Source of the DNA: a virus
Direction: 5' to 3' (one strand)
Length of the DNA: 32,470 bases
Virus record (IMG/VR): IMGVR_UViG_3300037189_026290
Span: 1-32,470 of that record
The notes beneath the pieces are model-generated. The model was given only the letters and a program-made list of their open reading frames with translations. It made no database searches and had not been told where the DNA came from. This document shows positions 7,318-32,470 of the stretch, piece after piece. Position numbers and translations under genes: made by a program. How positions within the stretch are numbered: position 1 is the first letter of the stretch; each line of letters begins with the position of its first letter.

Positions 7318-8769
7318 ATGAGCACAACTTACCACGGCGTCACCTCCGCTCTCATCATTGCCCCCGGCGAGCAGATCACGACTGCCAACAGCGGCCTGAC
7401 CACTCTGACCCGCACCTACCAGTGCGCGGCTACCTACGAGGCCACCGCGGAGTCGATCCTCGTCCCTGGATACGCCCCGGCAGATTACCCTCTCCTTGCC
7501 CTTCAGACCGCGCCGGTCGCCCAGCGCACGGGCTCGATCACGACTTTTGCCTGCACGTTCTTTGGTGTCCTTTCGGAATCGGCTTGGGAAAGGTATTACG
7601 ATCAATACTCCAGCCGCAACGAGCAGGCCTCCTACACTTACGAGGATTTCAAGGGGATCAGGTCACTTGGTTTCTTGCTGACTTCTGCCACCGGAAAGTT
7701 CAATTACGGAGCCCCCGTCTTAAGCCGGAGCTATGTAGTTCCCCGCGCCACGATGCCCAAGGTTCCGGCACTTGCGGCCTCAGCATGGTCAGGCGTTCCG
7801 GTCTCGACGTTCAATGAAGTCCCCCCGGCCTCGACCGTCCCGACCACGGTCACCTTGTCCAGCGGCGACACGGTGGCCTATCCCGTGACTTTCGATCCCG
7901 ATCAGCCGCGCGGCAGTGACCTGCTTGCGGTCGGCATGACGACCAGGGTGAACAGTTTCTCGGTCGTGCCCTACGGAGCCGCCAATCTGGTTTCCATCGA
8001 TTACGAGCGGGTATGGGGGGCCGACGGGCACACTCTGAATCCTTACGCGCACGATCCGACAAATCTCCGCGACAGTTCCATCGATGCCTTGGTCCTACCG
8101 ACCAACAACTGCACGATATCAGGCCTTACGGTGACACCGGAGGCGTATGATTCCTCCGACACCCTTCAGGCCTCGCTCGGAGCCGGTCCGATTTCGGTCG
8201 GGTATGCGTCGCTCTCCAATCCGACGCCGGAATTCCCCGTGCTGGCAACGGGGATCGTTTGGCACGATCATTTTAACTCGCTTTCTGGTAACGATTACAA
8301 CGGATCCACCAGTCTTGCCTCCGGCATGTTATCAACGGCGCTCCATCTCAAGCCTTGGAAATACGACATCGCGGTCTCCGTCGCGACGGAAGGAGGGACC
8401 GCAAGCTCCTTTGTCTATAATGTGGTCACCAAGGGCGTACCTCCTCCTCCGACGATTACTTCTGGGTCGAGCACATTGACCCCAGCGGTGGGAGGCAGTT
8501 TTCCTCATGCGGCGTACACGACGTTCCGGGTTGATTTCGACGAAGCCTACCTTGGAGCCACGGCAGACTTCTCCATCACCTCCTACAGTTACCGGGCAGC
8601 ACAGGGCGGATCGACGCTGACTGCGGGATCGCCTTCGATTTCCGGCCCGTCGGATATTAACAAGCATTTGACCTTTACCTTGGCGGGAAATGTCGGAACC
8701 GATGTCACTCTCCGTGCGGTGAATGCCAGCGGATCAAGTGCCGTGGCCACCACGACGATCGCCATATGA
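7318..8769 (+). CDS. Distal tail / tail tip structural protein (unknown family)
   Basis: The 483-residue protein is rich in Ser, Thr, Gly and Val and appears all-beta. The N-terminal 160 residues have many aromatic residues (YYDQYSSRNEQASYTYEDF). The C-terminal third, from about residue 375 (GVPPPPTITSGSS), looks like immunoglobulin-like or fibronectin-like repeats, ending DVTLRAVNASGSSAVATTT. Such domains are common in tail tip and decoration proteins. It directly follows the tape measure gene, where distal tail proteins are normally encoded. The stop overlaps the next start by four bases (ATGA), so the two are translationally coupled. I cannot assign a named family. Confidence 0.72.
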   Translation: MSTTYHGVTSALIIAPGEQITTANSGLTTLTRTYQCAATYEATAESILVPGYAPADYPLLALQTAPVAQRTGSITTFACTFFGVLSESAWERYYDQYSSRNEQASYTYEDFKGIRSLGFLLTSATGKFNYGAPVLSRSYVVPRATMPKVPALAASAWSGVPVSTFNEVPPASTVPTTVTLSSGDTVAYPVTFDPDQPRGSDLLAVGMTTRVNSFSVVPYGAANLVSIDYERVWGADGHTLNPYAHDPTNLRDSSIDALVLPTNNCTISGLTVTPEAYDSSDTLQASLGAGPISVGYASLSNPTPEFPVLATGIVWHDHFNSLSGNDYNGSTSLASGMLSTALHLKPWKYDIAVSVATEGGTASSFVYNVVTKGVPPPPTITSGSSTLTPAVGGSFPHAAYTTFRVDFDEAYLGATADFSITSYSYRAAQGGSTLTAGSPSISGPSDINKHLTFTLAGNVGTDVTLRAVNASGSSAVATTTIAI

Positions 8770-17099: not shown

Positions 17100-17587
17100 G
17101 CGATCACGAGGAGAAAATCACCGAGACGCTCCGGGTCGCCTGGAGTCGTGAGCAGGCCGCCGGTCGTGATCCGGTCTACACCCGCACGCCGCTGGACGAG
17201 ATGGTGGCACGCGAGGAGGGGGAGCATTTCGAGGAGCACGAGGTGCGTCTGGAGGCTTTCCGTCGCCTGCTATCGCTTTTCTTTGCCGACGGGCCGCATC
17301 CCGGGGATGTCATGCGCCGGGTCTATGCCGTGGCCAAGGCGCTCCGTCCCGAGCTGATCCTTAACATGTCGTGCAAGGAGATCGGCGGGATGTTCGGTGA
17401 GACCAAGGCCGCCGTCAGCTACCGCATCAAGCAGCTGGTCAACCGTCCCATCGCCGCCCTCTCGGGCCACAGCGCCCAGCTCCCCTGGCAGAAATCTTCC
17501 TCGGCCTGCGCCAAATACGCCGCGCGGGCCAAGGGCAATCAGAACCGCCGAAACCACAAACCCAAGAAAAAACCCGTCACATCATGA
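17096..17587 (+). CDS. HTH protein, sigma-factor-like or early regulator
   Basis: The 163-residue protein has an acidic N-terminal half and a clear helix-turn-helix at about residues 91-116 (MSCKEIGGMFGETKAAVSYR). The pattern 'SCKEIGxxxGxTKAAVSYRxK' resembles regions of sigma-70-like and phage late-control proteins that read DNA. The C-terminal 45 residues are basic (Asn/Arg/Lys-rich), probably unstructured. It lies before the ParB-like gene, overlapping it by four bases. A role as an early activator, perhaps of late genes, is an inference from the HTH and location. Confidence 0.7.
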   Translation: MSDHEEKITETLRVAWSREQAAGRDPVYTRTPLDEMVAREEGEHFEEHEVRLEAFRRLLSLFFADGPHPGDVMRRVYAVAKALRPELILNMSCKEIGGMFGETKAAVSYRIKQLVNRPIAALSGHSAQLPWQKSSSACAKYAARAKGNQNRRNHKPKKKPVTS

Positions 17588-19344
17588 GCAGTCACCCTGA
17601 GTTCCGCTTCGTCGCGATCGATCGCATCGCCAAGTCCCCGACCAATCCCCGCAAGGTTTTTCCGCCGGAATACATCACCGAACTGGCCTCCTCCATCAGC
17701 CTCAAGGGGATCATCTCCCCGCTGCTGGTCCGATCGACCGATGATCTGCCCGCTCCGGTGGGCCATGAGTATGAGCTGATCGCCGGGGAGTGCCGTCTCC
17801 GTGCCGCGGAGCAGGCCGGTCTCTCCGAGGTGCCCGTCCTGGTGCGCGATGATCTCTCGGCCAATGACGTGCTCGAGCTGCAGCTCATCGAGAATCTCCA
17901 GCGCCGCGAGCTCGATGTCCTCGAGGAGGCCGAGTCGTATGCCGCCCTGCTCGAGCTGGAGGATGCCGGGGTGAAGCGTCACACGGCCGAGTCGCTGGCC
18001 GCCGCGATCTCCAAGAGCACGCACTATATCCGCGAGCGGCTCAATCTCATGAAGCTCTCGGGCAAGGCCAAGGAGGCGATCCGCGCGGGGGAGCTGACCT
18101 TCTCGGTGGCCCGCCTCATCGCCACGATTCCCTCGCCCTCGCTAAGGGACCAGGCTCTCGATGAGGTGCTCCATCCGACCTATGAGGAGGAGCCGCTGAG
18201 CTCCCGCAAGGCCGCCGCCTGGATCCGCGAGCACTTCATGGTCGAGATCAAGAACGCCCCCTTCGACAAGGAGTCCGAGGAGCTGCTGCCGGTCGAGTAT
18301 GACGCCATGGGTCAGCGCGTGAAGGGTGGCGCCTGTGCCACCTGCCCCTGGCTCTCGGGGAATCTGCGTCCCGAGGTCCATGGGGAGGAGCATCCCGGCT
18401 CGGGGAATCCCGATCTCTGCATGCACCCCGGCTGCTACAGCGAAAAGCTCGAGGCCAGCTGGCAGGAGTCCCGTGCCGAGGCCCTGAAGGCCGGAAAGCG
18501 CGTCCTCTCCGAAAAGGAAGCCGAGTCGGAGATCAATCCCTATTACGCCGGGCTCGTCTGGAACTCCAAGTATGTCGCCCTCGGGGACAAGGTGCCCGCC
18601 GGAGAGCTGGCTGATCCGAGCGGCAAGCCGCCGACCTGGAAGAAGCTCCTCGCCAAGGTCTCGGTGAAGCCGGAGGTCTGCGTCCTGCGGGACAAGAGCC
18701 ATCGCCCGCTCGAGGTCGTGCTCAAGCGCGAGGCGGTCGCCGCCATCAAGCTCGAAGCCGAGAAAAGTGGCGAGGCCTCCCCACTGCGCGGCCGTGGTCA
18801 GAACCATCCCGAGGAAAAGCAGTCGAAGGAGATGAAGGATCAGGCCCGGGCCGCCGAGAAGCTCGAGACCAAGATCGCCGTCGAGACGCTCCATGCCGGG
18901 ATCCGCGCCATGGTCGATCTCTTTGCCTCGGAAAAAGCCCCGGAGGATTCCGTCCTCTGGCCCCGTCTACTGGATGCGGTCATGACTTATGGAATCACCG
19001 ATCTGATCGCCGATTACCTCGGGGTCTGGGATGCCGGTGCCGATCAGGATGCGGCGATCCGCGAGAAGCTGATGGGCTATCCCGTGGGGCAGGCCCGCGC
19101 TGCGCTGGCCCCCTATGTCCTGCTGATCCCGACGCTCGACCATGGGTGTGACTACCAGCTGAGGCAAGGAAATGTCCCAGGGGAGATTGTGGAGCTGCTG
19201 GGTCGCTTCGGCATCGATCTGGTCGCTATCAAAAAGACTGTTGAGGAGGCTCATGCCGAGGAGGCCAAGGAGCTGAAGAAGGCCGCCAAGGCCGCCCGCA
19301 AGCAACAGGCCGCCCAGGAGGAAGAGGAGGCCGCTGCTGTCTAA
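17584..19344 (+). CDS. ParB-like protein with added Cys domain
   Basis: This 586-residue protein has the ParB/Spo0J N-terminal fold. SPTNPRK is at about 18-24, followed by ELIAGECRLRAAEQAG at 64-79, which is the CTP-binding region (usually GERRxRA; here Cys70 replaces Arg). IENLQRRELDVLEEAESYA is at 102-120 and a KorB-like helix-turn-helix at about 134-158. Residues 251, 254, 279 and 284 are cysteines (CATC ... CMHPGC), a likely metal site. The C-terminal half is helical and charged, ending Ala/Glu/Lys-rich. No ParA gene is present, so its work may be transcription, genome organisation or origin control rather than partition. It could bind the phage origin repeats. Confidence 0.85.
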   Translation: MSSHPEFRFVAIDRIAKSPTNPRKVFPPEYITELASSISLKGIISPLLVRSTDDLPAPVGHEYELIAGECRLRAAEQAGLSEVPVLVRDDLSANDVLELQLIENLQRRELDVLEEAESYAALLELEDAGVKRHTAESLAAAISKSTHYIRERLNLMKLSGKAKEAIRAGELTFSVARLIATIPSPSLRDQALDEVLHPTYEEEPLSSRKAAAWIREHFMVEIKNAPFDKESEELLPVEYDAMGQRVKGGACATCPWLSGNLRPEVHGEEHPGSGNPDLCMHPGCYSEKLEASWQESRAEALKAGKRVLSEKEAESEINPYYAGLVWNSKYVALGDKVPAGELADPSGKPPTWKKLLAKVSVKPEVCVLRDKSHRPLEVVLKREAVAAIKLEAEKSGEASPLRGRGQNHPEEKQSKEMKDQARAAEKLETKIAVETLHAGIRAMVDLFASEKAPEDSVLWPRLLDAVMTYGITDLIADYLGVWDAGADQDAAIREKLMGYPVGQARAALAPYVLLIPTLDHGCDYQLRQGNVPGEIVELLGRFGIDLVAIKKTVEEAHAEEAKELKKAAKAARKQQAAQEEEEAAAV

Positions 19345-21750: not shown

Positions 21751-21962
21751 AATACTACGGCCAGCATGTGCCTTTTGGAGTTGGGCCGATTCCGAAGCTG
21801 GTCGGATTTTCCAAGGGGAAGATCCGGATCCGTCAGCGGAATGATGATTTCGTGACCATTTTCATCCGGACGAAGCATCGGTTCCTCGTCACGGTGCCGA
21901 TCGTTCACAAGGGGAATTGGCATTATTGCCCGTCCCTCAATTTCGCGCGGATATCCCGATGA
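21747..21962 (+). CDS. Small basic protein, unknown
   Basis: The 71-residue basic, beta-rich protein (KGKIRIRQRNDDFVTIFIR, then HRFLVTVPIVHKGNW) may be a small OB or SH3-like fold that binds nucleic acid. It starts right after GGAGGAGCAG, overlapping the ASCH stop, and overlaps the primase start. It lies next to the primase gene, so a replication accessory role, such as single-stranded DNA binding, is plausible but not shown. Confidence 0.6.
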   Translation: MKYYGQHVPFGVGPIPKLVGFSKGKIRIRQRNDDFVTIFIRTKHRFLVTVPIVHKGNWHYCPSLNFARISR

Positions 21963-23215
21963 GCACGACCCCCAAGCTCTCCGTCTTTGAGCGGGCTCAG
22001 AAGTATGTCGCCAAGATGGATGCGGCCGTTTCCGGCTCGGGTGGCCATGATGCCACTTTCGCTGTGGCCAAGGCGCTCGTGGATGGCTTCTCCCTCTCCA
22101 AGGAGGATGCGCTTGCCATTCTGAGGGAGTATAATGATCGCTGCTCGCCTCCCTGGAAGGATCACGAGCTGCTCCACAAGGTGAACTCGGTGACGGCCTC
22201 GACGGGCTATCTCCTGAAGGACTCCGACAGCTACACGCCTCGCCATGCCGCGGGATCACTCCCCGCTGCGCGCGCAGCGGAACCGGCGCCGACCTTTGAC
22301 TCGGAGAAGCTGGCCCGCTTTGCCGCGCCCTGGGCGTCGCAGGTGACGGCAGCCTGGCTGGCCGATCGCTCGGAGATCGATCCCACGGCCTGCACGACGC
22401 AGGAATTCCTCTCGGCGCTCTACTATCCGGAGCGTGGGGAGAAGGTGCTGATTTTCCTGAATGAGTTCTCCCAGGGGGAGGCACTCTGGCCCGATGACCG
22501 GGAGCTGCCCTCGGAGGGGCGGCGCGGGGTCTGGTATCTCGCCCAGCCGGTCGACGGCCGCTCGCGTCCGAATCCCCGGGGGAAGGATCCCTCGAAGCTC
22601 TCGCGTCGCATTGCCGAGTGCGTGGTGGCGTGGCGCTATCTCGTGCTCGAGAGCGATCAGGCCGATGCGCGCGACTGGATGGGGGCTGTCGTCCAGCTGC
22701 CTCTGAAAATCGCGGCCATCTACACCTCCGGCGGCCGCTCGGTCCATGTCCTGGTCCGGGTGGATGCCGTCAATGCCTCAGACTGGGATCGCACGAAGGC
22801 GGCGATCCTGAAGGGGCTCGTCACCCTCGGAGCCGATCGGGGGGCCCTCTCGGGGGTCCGCTTGACACGGCTCCCCAACTGCCTGCGTCTCGGGAAGGAC
22901 GTGGTCACCCCCTCCGATGATCCTGAAAAACCGATGAAAAAAACCTATCAACCGTTTCCACGTCCGCAGCTCCAGAAGCTGCTCTATGTCTGCCGCGAGC
23001 CCGCGGCCCGTCCGATCTGCGAGATGATCCCGCGCCGCGACACCGTGGCCTCCCTCGAGGGGCTGGTCCGCTCCTCGGGGCTCTCGCTCCTGGAGAAGCC
23101 CGCCGACGAGCTGCGCGCGCTCCATCGCCGTCTCCTGCATGTGGCGGCTCAGTCTCCCGTTTGCAAAGCCGCCTCCCGTGAAATCGGCGAGCTAATCGAA
23201 GGAGGTGTGAGGTGA
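21959..23215 (+). CDS. DNA primase, archaeo-eukaryotic-like (AEP)
   Basis: The 418-residue protein has an N-terminal helical domain (GSGGHDATFAVAKALVDGFS, ending SPPWKDHELLHKVNS) of the kind seen in phage primase and replication proteins. A short linker with the AARAAE repeat palindrome follows, then an AEP-like core. The acidic pair is in LVLESD (about 231-233, in place of the usual D-x-D), with the nucleotide-binding S-V-H at 261-263 and a further Asp at 269. It would lay down RNA or DNA primers for phage replication. The helicase gene follows three genes later. Because the first catalytic acid is Glu, activity should be confirmed. GGAGGTG at its end serves the next gene. Confidence 0.75.
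   Translation: MSTTPKLSVFERAQKYVAKMDAAVSGSGGHDATFAVAKALVDGFSLSKEDALAILREYNDRCSPPWKDHELLHKVNSVTASTGYLLKDSDSYTPRHAAGSLPAARAAEPAPTFDSEKLARFAAPWASQVTAAWLADRSEIDPTACTTQEFLSALYYPERGEKVLIFLNEFSQGEALWPDDRELPSEGRRGVWYLAQPVDGRSRPNPRGKDPSKLSRRIAECVVAWRYLVLESDQADARDWMGAVVQLPLKIAAIYTSGGRSVHVLVRVDAVNASDWDRTKAAILKGLVTLGADRGALSGVRLTRLPNCLRLGKDVVTPSDDPEKPMKKTYQPFPRPQLQKLLYVCREPAARPICEMIPRRDTVASLEGLVRSSGLSLLEKPADELRALHRRLLHVAAQSPVCKAASREIGELIEGGVR
22263..22280. repeat. 18-bp perfect palindrome CCGCTGCGCGCGCAGCGG
   Basis: A perfect palindrome inside the primase gene, read in frame as P-A-A-R-A-A-E in a linker between two domains. An identical 18-bp copy is at 31205, and a 16-base core copy at 13440. Confidence 0.9.
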
Positions 23216-24487: not shown

Positions 24488-26151
24488 GTAACCAAGCCGA
24501 TCTGACCAATGCGGTCCTGCAGAAGGCAGGCGTGATCGAGGCTCCGCCGCCGCCTGAGGCCTCCACGGAGCCGGTCGACTCGACGCTGTCGCTGCCGCCG
24601 ATCCGTCTCCCCGGGCGGAATGTCTATCTGTCGGAATTTGCCCGGCAACTGGGGCAGGTCTGCTCGACCAACGGGGTCTATGTGCGCGGCGATTTGCCGG
24701 TCTATCTCGATAAGCGGCACAACCGCCTCGAGCGGCTCGATCCCGACACGATGATCACTTATGCGGAGAAGCTGGCCTTCCTGCATCGTCTGGAGAAGTC
24801 GGGGGAGGAGTTCGTGAAGATCAAGGAGTCGATGAAGAAGGAGCATGCCCGCTCGGTGCTGGCCTCGACCCATTTCCGCGATCAGCAGCGCGAAATCTGG
24901 CGGGTGAATCCCGTCCCGTGCCCTGTCCTGCGGGTCAACGGTACGCTCGATCTGCTGAAGCCGGACTCGTTCGACCACGAGACGGGGATCCTGACGCTCC
25001 CGTCGGAGTTCCACTATCGCGAGATGCCGGTGGAGGAGGCGGTGGCCTTCTTTGCCAATCTCACGGCCGACTTTCCCATGCCCGGACGCGATGAGCGCGG
25101 GGTCTCACGGGCACTCACGGTCTGGATCGCCGCCCTGCTGACGCCCTTCGTGCTCGGGATGCTCGAGCGGGAGGATCTGGTTCCTTCGTTTGTGTTCGCT
25201 GCCAATAAACAGGGCTCCGGGAAAAGTCTTTGTGCCAAGATCATCCTCTGGGCGCTGTACGGCCGTCCGAGTGCTTTGCAGTTCGGCAAGGATGAGGAGG
25301 AGCTGCGCAAGGTGCTCGACACCGAGGCGATGGCTAATCAGCCCTTCCTCTTCTTCGATAACGTGAAGCGTGCCCTGTCGTCCGGATCGCTCGACATGTG
25401 GACAACTCAGCCTACCTGGAAAGGTCGCCGGATGCAGACTCAGTCGGGCTTTGAAGTGCCGAAGCAGTCGGTGATCATCATCAGCGCGAATCACCCCAAT
25501 CCCGACAAGGACGCGGATCGGCGCATGCTGTTCTGCGAGCTTTTCACCGAGCACGCGGACATTCAGAACAGGTCTTTCTCGCGGGTCATCAATGACGCCT
25601 GGCTGAAGCGTCCCGAGGTCCGCAATGACATCCTCTCGGCCGCCTGGTCTCTGGTCCTGCACTGGGATCGCTCAGGCCGTCCCCGCGGGCCGCGCTCGCT
25701 CGGGAGCTTCGAGTCCTGGGCTGCCCTGGTCGGCGGGATCTGCCAGGCCGCCGGGCTGCCCGATCCGCTCGACCGCTCGGAGAGTGTCGTGGCCGGGGAT
25801 GAGGATTCCAAGGATATGAAGGAGCTGGTGCGACTGCTGGCTCATGAGCTGATGGAGAAGATCCGAGCCGATGAGGCCGATGAGGAGCGGCCGCACGATG
25901 AGGAGGCGGCCAAGGCTGCCGAGTTCGAGTTCGATCGCGTGGTCGAGATTTGCGAGAAGTCGGACCTTTTCGTGAAGAAAATCGAACGCCGTGACGAAAA
26001 GCTCACGAGATCGTCCAGAATCAGCATGGGCCGTGTCCTGGGCAACGAGGCCGGTCAGATCTGGCAGGTCGACGGCGTCGGGCAAGTGCGGTTCGGTCGA
26101 CGTGGGAGCAAGAACTGGCGCTCCTTTACCGTGGAACTGGTGGAGGGATAG
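24484..26151 (+). CDS. AAA+/SF3-like replicative helicase
   Basis: The 555-residue protein has Walker A at about 241-248 (NKQGSGKS), Walker B at 288-293 (FLFFDNV), a sensor Asn336 in IISANHP, and a candidate arginine finger in DADRRM (346/347). This is the pattern of ring helicases of superfamily 3 and related phage helicase-primase proteins. The N-terminal 200 residues have no primase motif and may bind DNA or the primase. It follows the primase gene in the same operon and ends 47 bp before the lipoprotein gene, next to the iterons. The GTG start overlaps the previous stop. Its TAG stop lies inside one iteron copy (26143-26153). Confidence 0.84.
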   Translation: MSNQADLTNAVLQKAGVIEAPPPPEASTEPVDSTLSLPPIRLPGRNVYLSEFARQLGQVCSTNGVYVRGDLPVYLDKRHNRLERLDPDTMITYAEKLAFLHRLEKSGEEFVKIKESMKKEHARSVLASTHFRDQQREIWRVNPVPCPVLRVNGTLDLLKPDSFDHETGILTLPSEFHYREMPVEEAVAFFANLTADFPMPGRDERGVSRALTVWIAALLTPFVLGMLEREDLVPSFVFAANKQGSGKSLCAKIILWALYGRPSALQFGKDEEELRKVLDTEAMANQPFLFFDNVKRALSSGSLDMWTTQPTWKGRRMQTQSGFEVPKQSVIIISANHPNPDKDADRRMLFCELFTEHADIQNRSFSRVINDAWLKRPEVRNDILSAAWSLVLHWDRSGRPRGPRSLGSFESWAALVGGICQAAGLPDPLDRSESVVAGDEDSKDMKELVRLLAHELMEKIRADEADEERPHDEEAAKAAEFEFDRVVEICEKSDLFVKKIERRDEKLTRSSRISMGRVLGNEAGQIWQVDGVGQVRFGRRGSKNWRSFTVELVEG

Positions 26152-26153
26152 TC
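26143..26153 (-). repeat. Iteron copy at the helicase stop codon (inverted)
   Basis: GAGGGATAGTC is the reverse complement of GACTATCCCTC and matches the variant iteron at 26518. The TAG is the helicase stop codon. Confidence 0.7.
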
Positions 26154-26198
26154 CATTCACCAGGTGGCGCAAGCGGGGTTCCTGTGCCATGCTGATCC

Positions 26199-26366
26199 AT
26201 GAGAACAGTCCTGATCCTCGTGGTCCTGCTGTTGGTAGGGTGCGCCTCGAGCGTGACAACGGAGGATGCCCGCCTAGCTGCCTACAGCGCCGGTCTGGCT
26301 GATGGGGCCTACCTAGCCACTCATCCCGGCCGTCATGCTCTACCGTGTGGTCTGCCGCCACGTTAG
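26199..26366 (+). CDS. Small lipoprotein
   Basis: The 55-residue protein has a short hydrophobic signal (RTVLILVVLLLVGC) with lipobox LVGC, Cys15 being the predicted lipidated residue. The mature part is about 40 residues (ASSVTTEDARLAAYSAGLAD, ending PCGLPPR). It has no clear Shine-Dalgarno site. It stands alone next to the origin region. Short phage lipoproteins often mediate superinfection exclusion by blocking receptors, as in T5 Llp, so this is a candidate. The ATG at 26199 follows the helicase by 47 bp and may be transcribed with it. Confidence 0.74.
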   Translation: MRTVLILVVLLLVGCASSVTTEDARLAAYSAGLADGAYLATHPGRHALPCGLPPR

Positions 26367-26470
26367 AAAAGCTGGCTAACATAGGCCGTTCAGGCCTTCC
26401 TCATTGCGGCCGCAAGGCCTCTGCTGCACGGGCAGCGACACGGCCGTGCCTCGAACCTCCAGGGCCCTGC

Positions 26471-26668
26471 GACTATCCCACTCGACTATCCCACTGAGGC
26501 CTGCCCGCGGCCGCCTCGACTATCCCTCTCGGGTCTCATGCTGCCCAGACGGCGACCGGCCGCCGCCGCTCGGGCCTTCCCTCTATCCCATTCATTGCAA
26601 CTATCCCACAGACTATCCCACTGTTTAAGTTATTATTCTCCAATTATTTGGAGAATGAGTGGGATAGT
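26471..26668. repeat. Iteron array, consensus GACTATCCCACT
   Basis: Copies: 26471-26482, 26484-26495 (13-bp spacing), 26518-26529 (GACTATCCCTCT), a weak copy near 26583-26591 (CTATCCCAT), 26599-26610 (AACTATCCCACA), 26611-26622, and an inverted copy 26658-26668. Further inverted copies lie at 26143-26153 and 27410-27420. No good ORF covers this stretch. Repeats of this size next to replication genes are typical of initiator-binding iterons. Confidence 0.88.
26623..26660. other. AT-rich stretch with perfect hairpin; candidate origin unwinding element
   Basis: AT-rich sequence after the iterons contains ATTCTCCAA (26635-26643), a TTAT loop and TTGGAGAAT (26648-26656). The AT-rich arm and the hairpin sit between iteron copies. 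This is a usual layout of a DNA unwinding element in theta-type origins. Confidence 0.65.
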
Positions 26669-26692
26669 GAAGGAAGTGTCATGGGGTTACAG

Positions 26693-26775
26693 GTATTTGT
26701 TTACAAATACGGGCATACCAGAAGGGGCGAACATGCGGAACACTTTCCCACCCCCGGCTATCCGCACCCGGGGGT
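26693..26775. other. Two perfect hairpins between iterons and terminase
   Basis: GTATTTG-TTTA-CAAATAC lies at 26693-26710 and ACCCCCGG / CCGGGGGT at 26750-26757 and 26768-26775 with a 10-base loop. A T-tract (TTTTTGC) follows the second by 11 bases, so it could be a weak terminator for the early operon. A TAAAAT at 26797-26802 is a possible late promoter -10, but no good -35 was seen. Confidence 0.55.
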
Positions 26776-26825
26776 ACAAGGAATCTTTTTGCTAAATAAA
26801 ATCCTCTGCGGTTGGGCGCACTGGC

Positions 26826-26912
26826 GGTGTTTTTGTGCGCGTTTTTCGCATCATTAAAACGACGTTTGCCGTTCGCGGTGTTCGCTCGCATTCGCTTCTT
26901 GTCGTTTTGACA
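26826..26912. other. Candidate cos/terminase-binding region
   Basis: TTCGC occurs at 26844, 26872, 26881 and 26891, the last three 9-10 bases apart as GTTCGC, GTTCGC and ATTCGC. They lie inside an 8-bp inverted repeat AAAACGAC (26856-26863) / GTCGTTTT (26901-26908). In lambda-type phages the cos site lies just upstream of the small terminase gene, as here. No cohesive end can be read directly. Confidence 0.4.
26905..26912 (+). promoter_or_regulatory. TTTTGACA start-proximal element
   Basis: The box lies 13 nt before the GTG start at 26926 of the small terminase gene and is the right arm of the long inverted repeat. Confidence 0.5.
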
Positions 26913-26925
26913 ACGAAACGCGTGT

Positions 26926-27531
26926 GTGGCGACTTCGCATTCAGATTCCGCGCTCATCGCAGAGTGCGCTGGGCAACACGGCGTCACCGTGCGTTCGGTT
27001 CAAAAATGGAGAAAAACTGAAGACCGGCGTTGGTTGGAATTTCTTCGATCCCGCGCGGCCAGCGCTCAGATCGGACTTTTCTCCGCACCGCAGCAAGAAC
27101 GCCTCACGCCCCAACAGGAGGAAGACCAGGCAGCCCGCCGATACGCTGGGTTGGCCCTCATGGCCGACCGTGCGATTGCCGAGGGGAATTTCCTCGAGAT
27201 GCGTTCCGCCATCAAGGCCGCTGAAGACGCGCACAAGCTGCTGAAAACCGTCCGGGAGAATACGACCTCCGTTTTGGTGAACAGTGGGAAACTCGTTCCC
27301 GCCGACGAAGTCTCTGAACTGATCCTTGGGAACCTCTCCCTGGTCAAACGCCTCATCGAAAATTTGCCCGACGTCCTGGCTTCCCGGATTGAGTCCGCTT
27401 CCGACGTTCGTGGGATAGTCCGGGCAGAAGTCCATTCGATCCTCAAAGAAATTTCTTTGTCGGTGAGGTCCATGCCGTTTGTTGCCGAGCCGAGTGCTCC
27501 AAATCATGAGCCCGTCCCTCGCGCGGATTGA
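26926..27531 (+). CDS. Terminase small subunit (Nu1-like)
   Basis: The 201-residue protein has an N-terminal helix-turn-helix (LIAECAGQHGVTVRSVQKW) that should bind cos DNA, a Gln-rich linker (APQQERLTPQQEEDQ) and a C-terminal helical part for binding the large subunit. It directly precedes the large subunit gene and overlaps it by 26 bp. The GTG start fits the TTTTGACA box; two other in-phase-unrelated GTGs lie just upstream. An inverted iteron copy lies within the gene at 27410-27420. Confidence 0.82.
   Translation: MATSHSDSALIAECAGQHGVTVRSVQKWRKTEDRRWLEFLRSRAASAQIGLFSAPQQERLTPQQEEDQAARRYAGLALMADRAIAEGNFLEMRSAIKAAEDAHKLLKTVRENTTSVLVNSGKLVPADEVSELILGNLSLVKRLIENLPDVLASRIESASDVRGIVRAEVHSILKEISLSVRSMPFVAEPSAPNHEPVPRAD
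27410..27420 (-). repeat. Inverted iteron copy inside the small terminase gene
   Basis: GTGGGATAGTC is the reverse complement of GACTATCCCAC, 11 of 12 bases of the iteron. Being within a coding gene and about 750 bp from the array, it could extend the control region. Confidence 0.6.
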
Positions 27532-29266
27532 GTCGCAGCTCGAAAAGCTCTGGAACCCCCGCGAGCGCATGGACCCGCTCACATGGGCAGAGCGAGAAGT
27601 GATGATCGACGCGCGCTTCAGCCCAAAGCCAGGCCGCTTCGATTCTTCATTCACCCCGTACATCCGGCAGCTGCACCGTTGGTTCGGTGATCCGAACATC
27701 CGTCAGATCACCCTGCAGAAAAGCGCCCAGATCGGCGGTACCACCTTTTTGGCAAACCTCATGCAATGGGTGCCCGCGGAGGAACCGGGGCCCGTCCTCT
27801 ACGTCACCTCGACGGCAGACAATGCCAAGTCTTGGAGCGAACGGGAACTGATCCCGCGCATCCGCTCCTGCCCGGCGCTCCGGGATTTGCTTCCGGATGA
27901 TCCGGATCAGTTCAAAAAAACGGAAATCTTTTTCAAATCGTGCGTCATGAAACTGGTCGGCGCCCAGTCGGTCAGTGCCTTGGCGTCTCGCGGCGTTCGC
28001 TACCTTTTTTGCGACGAAGTGGACAAATGGCCGTCGCAAACCGATGCCGAGGCACCGGCGCTCGAGCTGGCGATGGCCCGTACGAATTTCTACGAACGCA
28101 TCAGCAAGACTGTCCTGGCCAGCACGCCCACCGTGATCGAGGGGGCAATTCACCAACAGTTCCTGCTCGGCAGCCAGCACCGTTATCATGTTGTCTGCCA
28201 GGATTGCGGAAAATCTCAGTGGTTGAAATTCGACCAGATCAAATGGTCCGAAGATCTGCGAGACGACGATGGTAAATGGGCGCTCGACGCCGTGGAGGAA
28301 TCGGCATGCTACCAATGTGAAGAATGCGGATCTCCTTGGTCGCAAGACAGAAAACGCGACTTGTTGATCCCCGAAGATCTCGGAGGCCGGGCGCATTGGG
28401 TTCAGGGAAACTCCTCGGCTCCCAGCGACCACATCAGCGTCCATCTTTCTGCGCTCTACTCGCCGCAACAAAGCTGGGGCCATACCGCCAAACTCTTTCT
28501 GCAAAAAAAAGACGATCCTGGCGGCTTGCACGATTTCCAGAACAACACGCTCGGGGTTCCTTACGAGACCCGCGTTTTTTCGCTAAAAGAAGAGCGTCTC
28601 CTTGATCTTCGTACTAGCGAATACCGTTTGCGGGAAATCCCGGCCGCCGCGTGTGTGAATCCCGAGTCCGGACCAGTCCTTCTAAGTATCTGCGCCGATC
28701 CGGGTCAAAAAGAAACGCATTGGAGCGTCGAGGCGCGAAACCTTGCCGGGGAAAGTTGGGTGATCGACTACGGCAGCGTGTTGGCCATCGACGACCTGAA
28801 CTCTGCCGCTTTCCTGTCCGGTCTCAGATACCGCGTCCAAGGAACAGAGATCTACCATTGCCCGACCGTGGGCCTCGTCGACAGCGGAGACTTCACCACG
28901 ACCGTCTACGACATGTGCGCGGCCAGCGGTGGCCGCTATTTCCCGTCCAAAGGATCGGCGGCTTCCTTTGGAACTTTTTCCAAAAGCCGCATTCACGGTT
29001 ACCCAAATCTGTTGCTTTTCACATACGTCGATTTTACTTGGAAATTTAGCCTGTATGATGAGCGGATCGGCCGCCGCCTGCCCCCGCTCCTGCATTGGCC
29101 AGCGGATGTCGGCAGGGATTTCATCCAAGGCCACGCCGGACAGAAAATCCTTGAGAACCGAAAGAACCGCAACACGCCGCGTTTTTTTGCAAAGGTGGCA
29201 AACGACCACTGGGGCGATTGCAGTAAGCTTCACCAAGTCTGCTGGGCCGAAATTCGATCAAGCTAG
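27506..29266 (+). CDS. Terminase large subunit, GpA type
   Basis: With ATG 27506 the protein is 586 residues. The ATPase has a Walker A-like QKSAQIGGTT (71-80), Walker B YLFCDEVD (166-173; Asp170, Glu171) and a coupling ASTPT (205-209). A Zn-ribbon-like part has C231-x2-C234 and C268-x2-C271-x2-C274. The nuclease acid is in ICADPGQ (about Asp398), followed by further Asp and His in the RNase H fold. Lambda gpA family proteins share this layout. It cuts at cos and drives DNA into the prohead with the portal. The earlier in-frame TTG (27479) is unlikely. The short gap before the next gene contains a TTTTGACT element. Confidence 0.93.
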   Translation: MSPSLARIESQLEKLWNPRERMDPLTWAEREVMIDARFSPKPGRFDSSFTPYIRQLHRWFGDPNIRQITLQKSAQIGGTTFLANLMQWVPAEEPGPVLYVTSTADNAKSWSERELIPRIRSCPALRDLLPDDPDQFKKTEIFFKSCVMKLVGAQSVSALASRGVRYLFCDEVDKWPSQTDAEAPALELAMARTNFYERISKTVLASTPTVIEGAIHQQFLLGSQHRYHVVCQDCGKSQWLKFDQIKWSEDLRDDDGKWALDAVEESACYQCEECGSPWSQDRKRDLLIPEDLGGRAHWVQGNSSAPSDHISVHLSALYSPQQSWGHTAKLFLQKKDDPGGLHDFQNNTLGVPYETRVFSLKEERLLDLRTSEYRLREIPAAACVNPESGPVLLSICADPGQKETHWSVEARNLAGESWVIDYGSVLAIDDLNSAAFLSGLRYRVQGTEIYHCPTVGLVDSGDFTTTVYDMCAASGGRYFPSKGSAASFGTFSKSRIHGYPNLLLFTYVDFTWKFSLYDERIGRRLPPLLHWPADVGRDFIQGHAGQKILENRKNRNTPRFFAKVANDHWGDCSKLHQVCWAEIRSS

Positions 29267-31733: not shown

Positions 31734-32470
31734 ATGAGCCGAACCTGGTATGCCATTTCTAACACCACCGACAACAGCGCGGACATTGAGATCTATGACG
31801 AGATTGGCGGGTGGGGTGTTTCTGCCAAAGAATTCATCAAAGGCCTTGCCGCCCTCAGTGGAAAACACCTCAACCTCCGGATCAACTCTCCCGGGGGCAG
31901 CATTGTCGACGGGCAAGCCATCATCGCCGCGCTGAACCGTCACGTCGGAGGATTCACCGCATGGGTCGACGGCCTTGCGGCGTCCATGGCCAGTGTCATT
32001 GCTTGCGCTGCCGAGCGCTGCTACATGGCGGACGGGGCCATGATGATGATCCATCGGGCCAGCACCGTTTCCATGGGGGACGCAAGCGACTTGCGCAAGG
32101 ACGCCGATATCCTGGAAAAATTCGAGCGCGGATTGCTGAGCGTTTATCAGAAAAAGACGGGCCTCGAGGAACCGGCGCTTAAGGAAATGCTTGCTCAGGA
32201 AACGTGGATGGACGCCCTGGAAGCCGTGGCTCTTGGGTTTGCCGACGGGATCACCGATGCGCCTGCGGCAATGGCCAAGCTCAGCGCAGTGGAAATGCGT
32301 GCGCGATTTGACACCTTCCGATCAAAAAACATGAATCCTCAATCTTCCGCCACCAAAGCCTCCACGGAAAACCCGATCGTCACCGCTCCCCTCGCCCCCG
32401 CTGCTGCTGCCCCGCCGGTTGCCCAAGTGGACGGCCCCGCAGGGACTCAGAACGATCCTGAGGGCGGCAA
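31734..32470 (+). CDS. Head maturation protease (ClpP/S14-like), N-terminal part of protease-scaffold
   Basis: This is the 5' part of a 401-residue gene that continues at position 2. It has the ClpP-like order: NSPGGSIVDG (51-60, oxyanion loop), nucleophile Ser84 in GLAASMAS, general base His107 in MMIHRA, and an acid-bearing helix after (DASDLRKDAD). Lambda gpC-type and P2/HK97-type phages use related proteases to trim scaffold and coat in the prohead. It lies between the Dps-like gene and the coat gene. An internal ATG at 32331 could give a separate scaffold. The last 87 bases repeat positions 1-87. Confidence 0.9.
   Translation, partial: MSRTWYAISNTTDNSADIEIYDEIGGWGVSAKEFIKGLAALSGKHLNLRINSPGGSIVDGQAIIAALNRHVGGFTAWVDGLAASMASVIACAAERCYMADGAMMMIHRASTVSMGDASDLRKDADILEKFERGLLSVYQKKTGLEEPALKEMLAQETWMDALEAVALGFADGITDAPAAMAKLSAVEMRARFDTFRSKNMNPQSSATKASTENPIVTAPLAPAAAAPPVAQVDGPAGTQNDPEGG
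32307..32313 (+). promoter_or_regulatory. TTTGACA element before the internal scaffold start
   Basis: The box lies 17 nt before the in-frame ATG at 32331, inside the protease coding region. It supports internal initiation. Confidence 0.45.
32331..32470 (+). CDS. Scaffold protein from an internal start (continues at position 2)
   Basis: ATG 32331 is codon 200 of the protease-scaffold gene. It begins MNPQSSATKASTENP and would give a 202-residue scaffold without the protease, ending at 556. In lambda the scaffold Nu3 is made the same way from within gene C. The ATG follows an A-rich run (ATCAAAAAAC) and a TTTGACA box at 17 nt. This is inferred from layout; no direct evidence. Confidence 0.62.
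   Translation, partial: MNPQSSATKASTENPIVTAPLAPAAAAPPVAQVDGPAGTQNDPEGG
32384..32470. repeat. Terminal overlap of a circular assembly (right copy)
   Basis: These 87 bases are identical to 1-87. The codon phase is the same in both copies, so the genome joins here. Confidence 0.95.

Follow-up and report, generated by a model that had tools for sequence, protein, structure and literature searches.

In phage P4, replication is initiated by the alpha protein, a helicase fused to a primase whose C-terminal origin-binding domain reads short iterons, and its origin region comprises ori and a distant crr. A different initiator, the rolling-circle Rep of geminiviruses, contains residues that covary with iteron bases among relatives. 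When DNA is bound by a winged helix, the usual contacting places are the recognition helix and the wing. The origins of PICI elements are located immediately 3' of rep and have their iterons in two sets, one on either side of an AT-rich region (PMC6092414). According to the same 2018 paper, no other known bacterial replicon had this layout (PMC6092414).

The DNA analysed here (the window) is the viral record IMGVR_UViG_3300037189_026290, with a length of 32,470 nucleotides. Since its two ends (1-87 and 32384-32470) share 87 identical bases, the window most likely represents an entire phage genome in circularised form, about 32,383 bp long. Its genes include those for coat, portal, GpA-type terminase, integrase, primase and helicase (HEL), and the hosts of these phages are probably Verrucomicrobiota. 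The window is not itself a PICI element, a satellite lacking the full set of virion genes, as it encodes coat, portal, TerL and others. Downstream of HEL there is an array of iterons which, with a probability of roughly 0.86, would be the replication origin of this temperate, cos-packaged phage, its iterons being bound by the C-terminal winged-helix-like domain of HEL. We infer the following sequence of events: this domain would bind the iterons flanking an AT-rich hairpin, HEL would be loaded at the array and would then melt the AT-rich segment, and priming of synthesis would fall to the phage primase. The origin would adjoin, and be separate from, the cos site at which concatemers would be cut and packaged. 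The coordinates of all these features are collected in Table 1.

Table 1. Genes, iterons and cos-associated elements of the window (whole-window positions)
Feature	Position	Strand	Evidence or remarks
PRIM, DNA primase	21917-23215	+	PHROG 2597 DNA primase, E=2e-9
ParB-like protein	17584-19344		
HEL, initiator-type SF3/D5-like AAA+ helicase, 584 aa	24397-26151	+	weak Pfam DUF5906; PHROG 10537; AF2 model
HEL C-terminal winged-helix-like domain (residues 507-584), proposed iteron-binding	25915-26148	+	AF2 topology; covarying columns at I542 and W574
Outlying copy, 2 mismatches	26142-26153	-	
Left iteron set (26471, 26484, 26518, 26581, 26599, 26611)	26471-26622	+	consensus GACTATCCCACT; conserved in G001 and G021-G023
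Iteron, exact	26471-26482	+	
Iteron, exact	26484-26495	+	
Iteron, 1 mismatch	26518-26529	+	
Iteron, degenerate, 3 mismatches	26581-26592	+	
Iteron, 2 mismatches	26599-26610	+	
Iteron, exact	26611-26622	+	
AT-rich segment with perfect hairpin, candidate melting site	26612-26657	.	70% AT peak; in relatives the stem is kept and the loop varies
Right-hand inverted iteron, 1 mismatch	26658-26669	-	position matched in relatives
Right-hand iteron, degenerate, 3 mismatches	26741-26752	+	CACTTTCCCACC; CACTATCCCATT in G021
AAGGAATCTTTT, putatively cosQ-like, about 20 bp before cosN	26778-26789	+	in the relatives examined, with small variations
cosN candidate GTTGGGCGCACT	26811-26822	+	contig ends of relatives, 9-12 nt shared
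TTCG(C) repeats, cosB-like (26845, 26872, 26881, 26891; CGAA 26914)	26845-26917	+	between cosN and TerS
TerS, small terminase	26926-27531	+	position and homologs; directly before TerL in relatives with 60% TerL identity; no match in Pfam or PHROG
Outlying copy, 1 mismatch	27409-27420	-	within the TerS coding sequence
TerL, GpA family	27479-29266	+	Pfam GpA_ATPase, E=3e-53

The first-pass annotation of the window had described direct and inverted copies of a repeat between 26143 and 27420, with paired spacings of 13 and 12 bp, an AT-rich stretch and a perfect hairpin, and had proposed a candidate replication origin. The repeat is real, its direct and inverted copies and both spacings are as described, and the hairpin (ATTCTCCAATTATTTGGAGAAT, 26635-26656) lies within the local AT maximum (26612-26651, 70% AT). 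The extent given had been too generous: repeats are found across that interval, but the functional array is narrower, comprising 26471-26669 plus the degenerate copy at 26741-26752. It contains seven ACTATCCC-type copies and one or two degenerate ones, all inside 26471-26752, the window iteron word being GACTATCCC. Six plus-strand copies are located to the left of the AT-rich hairpin and an inverted copy directly on its right, so that the right-hand set of the window is composed of one good and one degenerate copy. The outlying copies, one at 26142 and one at 27409, are probably incidental; the former is retained in the nearest relative (G001) only, and the latter sits in the TerS gene, the nearest relatives having an unrelated TerS.

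The array begins 320 bp past the HEL stop codon, with a short ORF intervening and the same interval in the relatives compared, and ends about 140 bp ahead of the cos site. A small lipoprotein-like ORF (26199-26366) between HEL and the array is conserved in G001, L033 and G022. There is also a palindrome, GTATTTGTTTACAAATAC, at 26693-26710, which is nearly kept in G001 but not in other relatives.

With respect to statistics, the core CTATCCC/GGGATAG is present 11 times in the whole genome versus 2.2 expected under an order-3 model, and nine of these copies fall inside the 1.28 kb originally described (Poisson P ~1e-15). Elsewhere CTATCCC appears as singles at 7878 and 19077, and the window contains no second array. 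When three mismatches are allowed, the whole-window iteron count (17, versus 18.15 by chance) shows no excess, and for this reason weight was placed only on the better copies. Taken by itself, this last count would suit a chance or low-complexity repeat, or else sites for a host factor without a phage partner. Such an explanation is very improbable: the strong core enrichment, together with the conserved offsets, the concerted change of the copies and the covariation with a phage protein described below, argues against both of its versions and already contradicts a chance origin.

What the array travels with was established by an exact search for two tandem iterons in the 2.9 million contigs of IMG/VR. 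The doubled window iteron was found in five contigs, in all of which the gene directly before the array is a HEL relative (76-96% identity), and an alignment-based search for the window-type HEL retrieved exactly these five. In one contig (L051), both array and HEL are present and the TerL is unrelated (21% identity). G001 shows 94% DNA identity to the window from HEL through the array and, beyond it (window 26823 onward), carries an unrelated TerS that is common to G021-G023. Because of these linkage patterns in L051 and G001, the array is to be grouped with HEL rather than the terminase. A comparison of G001 with the window also indicates that early and late modules have been exchanged around cos.

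The cos site itself can be located from the linear contigs of five relatives (G006, G010, G016, G017 and G022), whose ends share 9-12 nt at an aligned site. On the HEL side these contigs stop at the shared sequence, for example GTTGGGCGCACT in G006, and on the TerS side they start with it; further contigs start there too. The repeats placed between cosN and TerS vary with the TerS helix: TTCC is associated with VRNW, and TTCG with VQKW or VQIW; L171, obtained later, combines VQLW with TTCG. Judging from this correspondence, the TTCC/TTCG repeats are candidate TerS sites. They bear on the possibility, already raised in the first-pass annotation, that the iterons are TerS-binding cosB/R sites, a proposal based on their location just before TerS, to which the copy inside that gene can be added. 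Its probability is close to nil: the same array is found beside unrelated terminases, L009 and L035 possess 99.5% identical TerS proteins and different iterons, and cosN separates the array from TerS, which has its own distinct repeats beyond cos. The array as cosB was therefore rejected, since it tracks HEL and not TerS.

As binding partner, the primase, the helicase or the ParB-like protein encoded upstream had been suggested. The helicase is retained, covariation pointing to its C-terminal winged-helix-like domain. The ParB-like protein of the window would offer a further explanation, in which the repeats are a centromere (parS). This is extremely improbable, as the array is 7 kb away from parB and neither ParB_N nor the window ParB was found in 12 array-bearing sister records; the protein was found in G001, G022 and G023. 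ParB is thus an unlikely partner of the array.

A wider sister set was obtained by fetching 43 TerL relatives and reading the interval wherever both HEL and TerS were present. The suggested search of relatives for the same repeat gave a divided result: this sequence is absent from them, but they carry a repeat of their own at the same place. In relatives at about 60% TerL and 33-36% HEL identity, the HEL-cos interval carries iterons of a different sequence at corresponding offsets, and the HEL-TerS interval (approximately 530-750 bp) contains words such as GGACGAT, GGACTAT, CGACTAT, GGACGGT, CGATGGT, GGCAGGT, TGCAGGT and ACCATGTCC. For instance, L019, L067, L059 and L009 carry eight or nine iterons at near-identical offsets, the words being GGACTAT, CGACTAT and GGACGAT. 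That all copies within a phage changed together points to a common reader that also changed. The iterons of L013, L015 and L022 are degenerate; they were missed by the automatic word count and were read by eye. These comparisons give good support to the candidate replication origin. In sister phages such as L018 and L019, HEL is split into an N-part ORF of about 160-180 aa and a 367-aa helicase, sometimes with genes between them.

More distant helicases were also searched for. The Akkermansia phage Moulinsart, whose helicase is 25% identical, is devoid of the ACTATCCC array. A scan of genome contigs with a single HEL protein produced no matches, and an alignment-based scan of genome contigs detected four distant loci. 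In three Planctomycetota loci (L162, L163 and L164), with helicases of 28-34% identity, the short repeats TCCCCCA, AGAGTCA and CAAGTGT are located just after the helicase gene.

The AF2 model of the window HEL has a pLDDT of 75. Its best structural match as a whole is the SaPI5 primase-helicase 7OLA (VIA Z 14.9, 308 residues, rmsd 5.3, 12% identity), followed by poxvirus D5/E5, and a PDB sequence search with the helicase profile yielded nothing convincing. The predicted C-terminal topology consists of two helices (512-521 and 538-550) and a three-stranded sheet (554-558, 562-569 and 576-583), with a wing at about 570-575. Modelled alone, this domain has a pLDDT of 67 and a fitting topology, and no significant PDB match was obtained. 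Given this modest model without a match, the designation winged helix rests on predicted topology and covariation. In the sister-clade alignment described below, column 328 falls on the helix residue I542 and columns 360-361 fall on the wing residues N573-W574.

Which protein reads the repeats was examined in an alignment of 23 sister-clade helicases (367 columns), in which columns that predict each iteron base without exception were sought. Column 361, in the predicted wing, is the sole exceptionless predictor of base 1 (D, E and S with G; N and K with C; A with T), and column 328, in the predicted recognition helix, is that of base 6 (T with A; A, C, G and S with G). On a tree built from the ATPase part only, parsimony requires at least six changes of base 1 and at least five of base 6. 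When labels were shuffled among 15 blocks of related phages, a perfect column for base 1 arose in 0 of 2000 trials and one for base 6 in 13 of 2000. No column predictive of base 1 or 6 exists in the primase, HEL N-part, TerS, TerL or portal, for which about 1,800 columns were compared in the phage subset having each gene, and among the helicase columns none predicts bases 4 or 5. Base 3 was excluded as evidence, its many exceptionless columns tracking phylogeny.

In one set, nine near-identical helicases are accompanied by three iteron types. The ATPase part of L006, L009, L016 and L130 (GGACGAT) is near-identical to that of L035 and L133 (CGATGGT), and consistent differences are restricted to four of the 367 columns (328, 360, 361 and 363). 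Between L009 and L035, moreover, HEL-N is 100% identical. The rule had been recorded before L142 was obtained, and this phage agrees with it; L161, from a Spartobacteria MAG, agrees with the TGCAGGT group and is its close sister. In the window clade, the five helicases do not differ at residues 541-546 and 570-575, and the iteron hardly varies; this agrees with the code but is no test of it, the code having been read from the sister clade.

Among the sister phages, two C-terminal helicase residues thus change in step with two repeat bases, as expected of a repeat-reading protein. We lean slightly towards a recognition code in which the helix residue would set base 6 and the wing residue base 1, near-identical sister phages having switched origin specificity several times through few substitutions and concerted iteron change; in this same proposal, origin, cos and cosB, placed side by side, would act as the junction for the exchange of early and late modules. 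The near-identical helicase pairs, with four consistent differences and different iterons, are natural proteins for testing the evolution of origin specificity: whether the initiator or the iterons change first, and whether compatibility groups are created, could be addressed with them.

It had also been proposed to look for a change in GC skew at about 26.5 kb. Such a change exists, at about 26.3 kb, but it is a maximum of the cumulative skew, with the trough near 15 kb, and gives no support to a simple bidirectional origin. On the plus strand, early genes are more G-rich and late genes C-rich, a polarity opposite to the one expected if G-rich leading strands departed from a bidirectional origin. 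In eight relatives the skew likewise falls, from early to late genes, at the HEL-TerS interval, and in the window it follows the third-codon-position bias of late versus early genes. Because the change is in the right place with the opposite polarity, skew was set aside as origin evidence, being neutral to mildly unfavourable. The trough, away from the array, would suit iterons that bind HEL and are mainly regulatory, whether in autorepression, in copy control or in switching between replication and late transcription or packaging, the true origin being elsewhere; the location of the array beside cos, with the early operon on one side and the late terminase operon on the other, would be suitable for such a function. 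Nevertheless, we consider this unlikely, as tested PICI origins have this same arrangement, in which an SF3 helicase gene is followed on its 3' side by an AT-rich hairpin enclosed by two iteron sets, and a second array is missing from the window. The array as origin thus continues to be the preferred interpretation.

Compared with known systems, the cos region resembles lambda-type cos (cosQ-cosN-cosB, with a GpA-family TerL) in the 9-12 nt shared ends and the repeats on the TerS side, and differs from it in the cosN and cosB sequences and in the proposed origin lying directly beside cos. The geminivirus Rep shows a similar covariation, although its fold and lifestyle are unrelated to those of the HEL phages. 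P4 alpha and its ori-crr resemble the arrangement proposed here, an initiator helicase with a C-terminal iteron-reading domain, but the window has a single array and no crr-like second one. The PICI/SaPI rep-ori (PMC6092414; 7OLA/7OM0; PriRep1 7PDS) shares with this locus an SF3-type initiator helicase accompanied by a primase, an array placed immediately 3' of the helicase gene and two iteron sets flanking an AT-rich region, and the SaPI5 helicase fold is the one most similar to HEL. However, the present arrays occur in complete phages encoding capsid, portal and terminase, the primase is a separate gene and the N-part of the helicase is split off in sister phages, and the proposed origin abuts cos. 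On the best reading of these comparisons, the array would be a rep-ori origin of the PICI/SaPI style, carried by a complete cos phage and bound by the C-terminal domain of the helicase.
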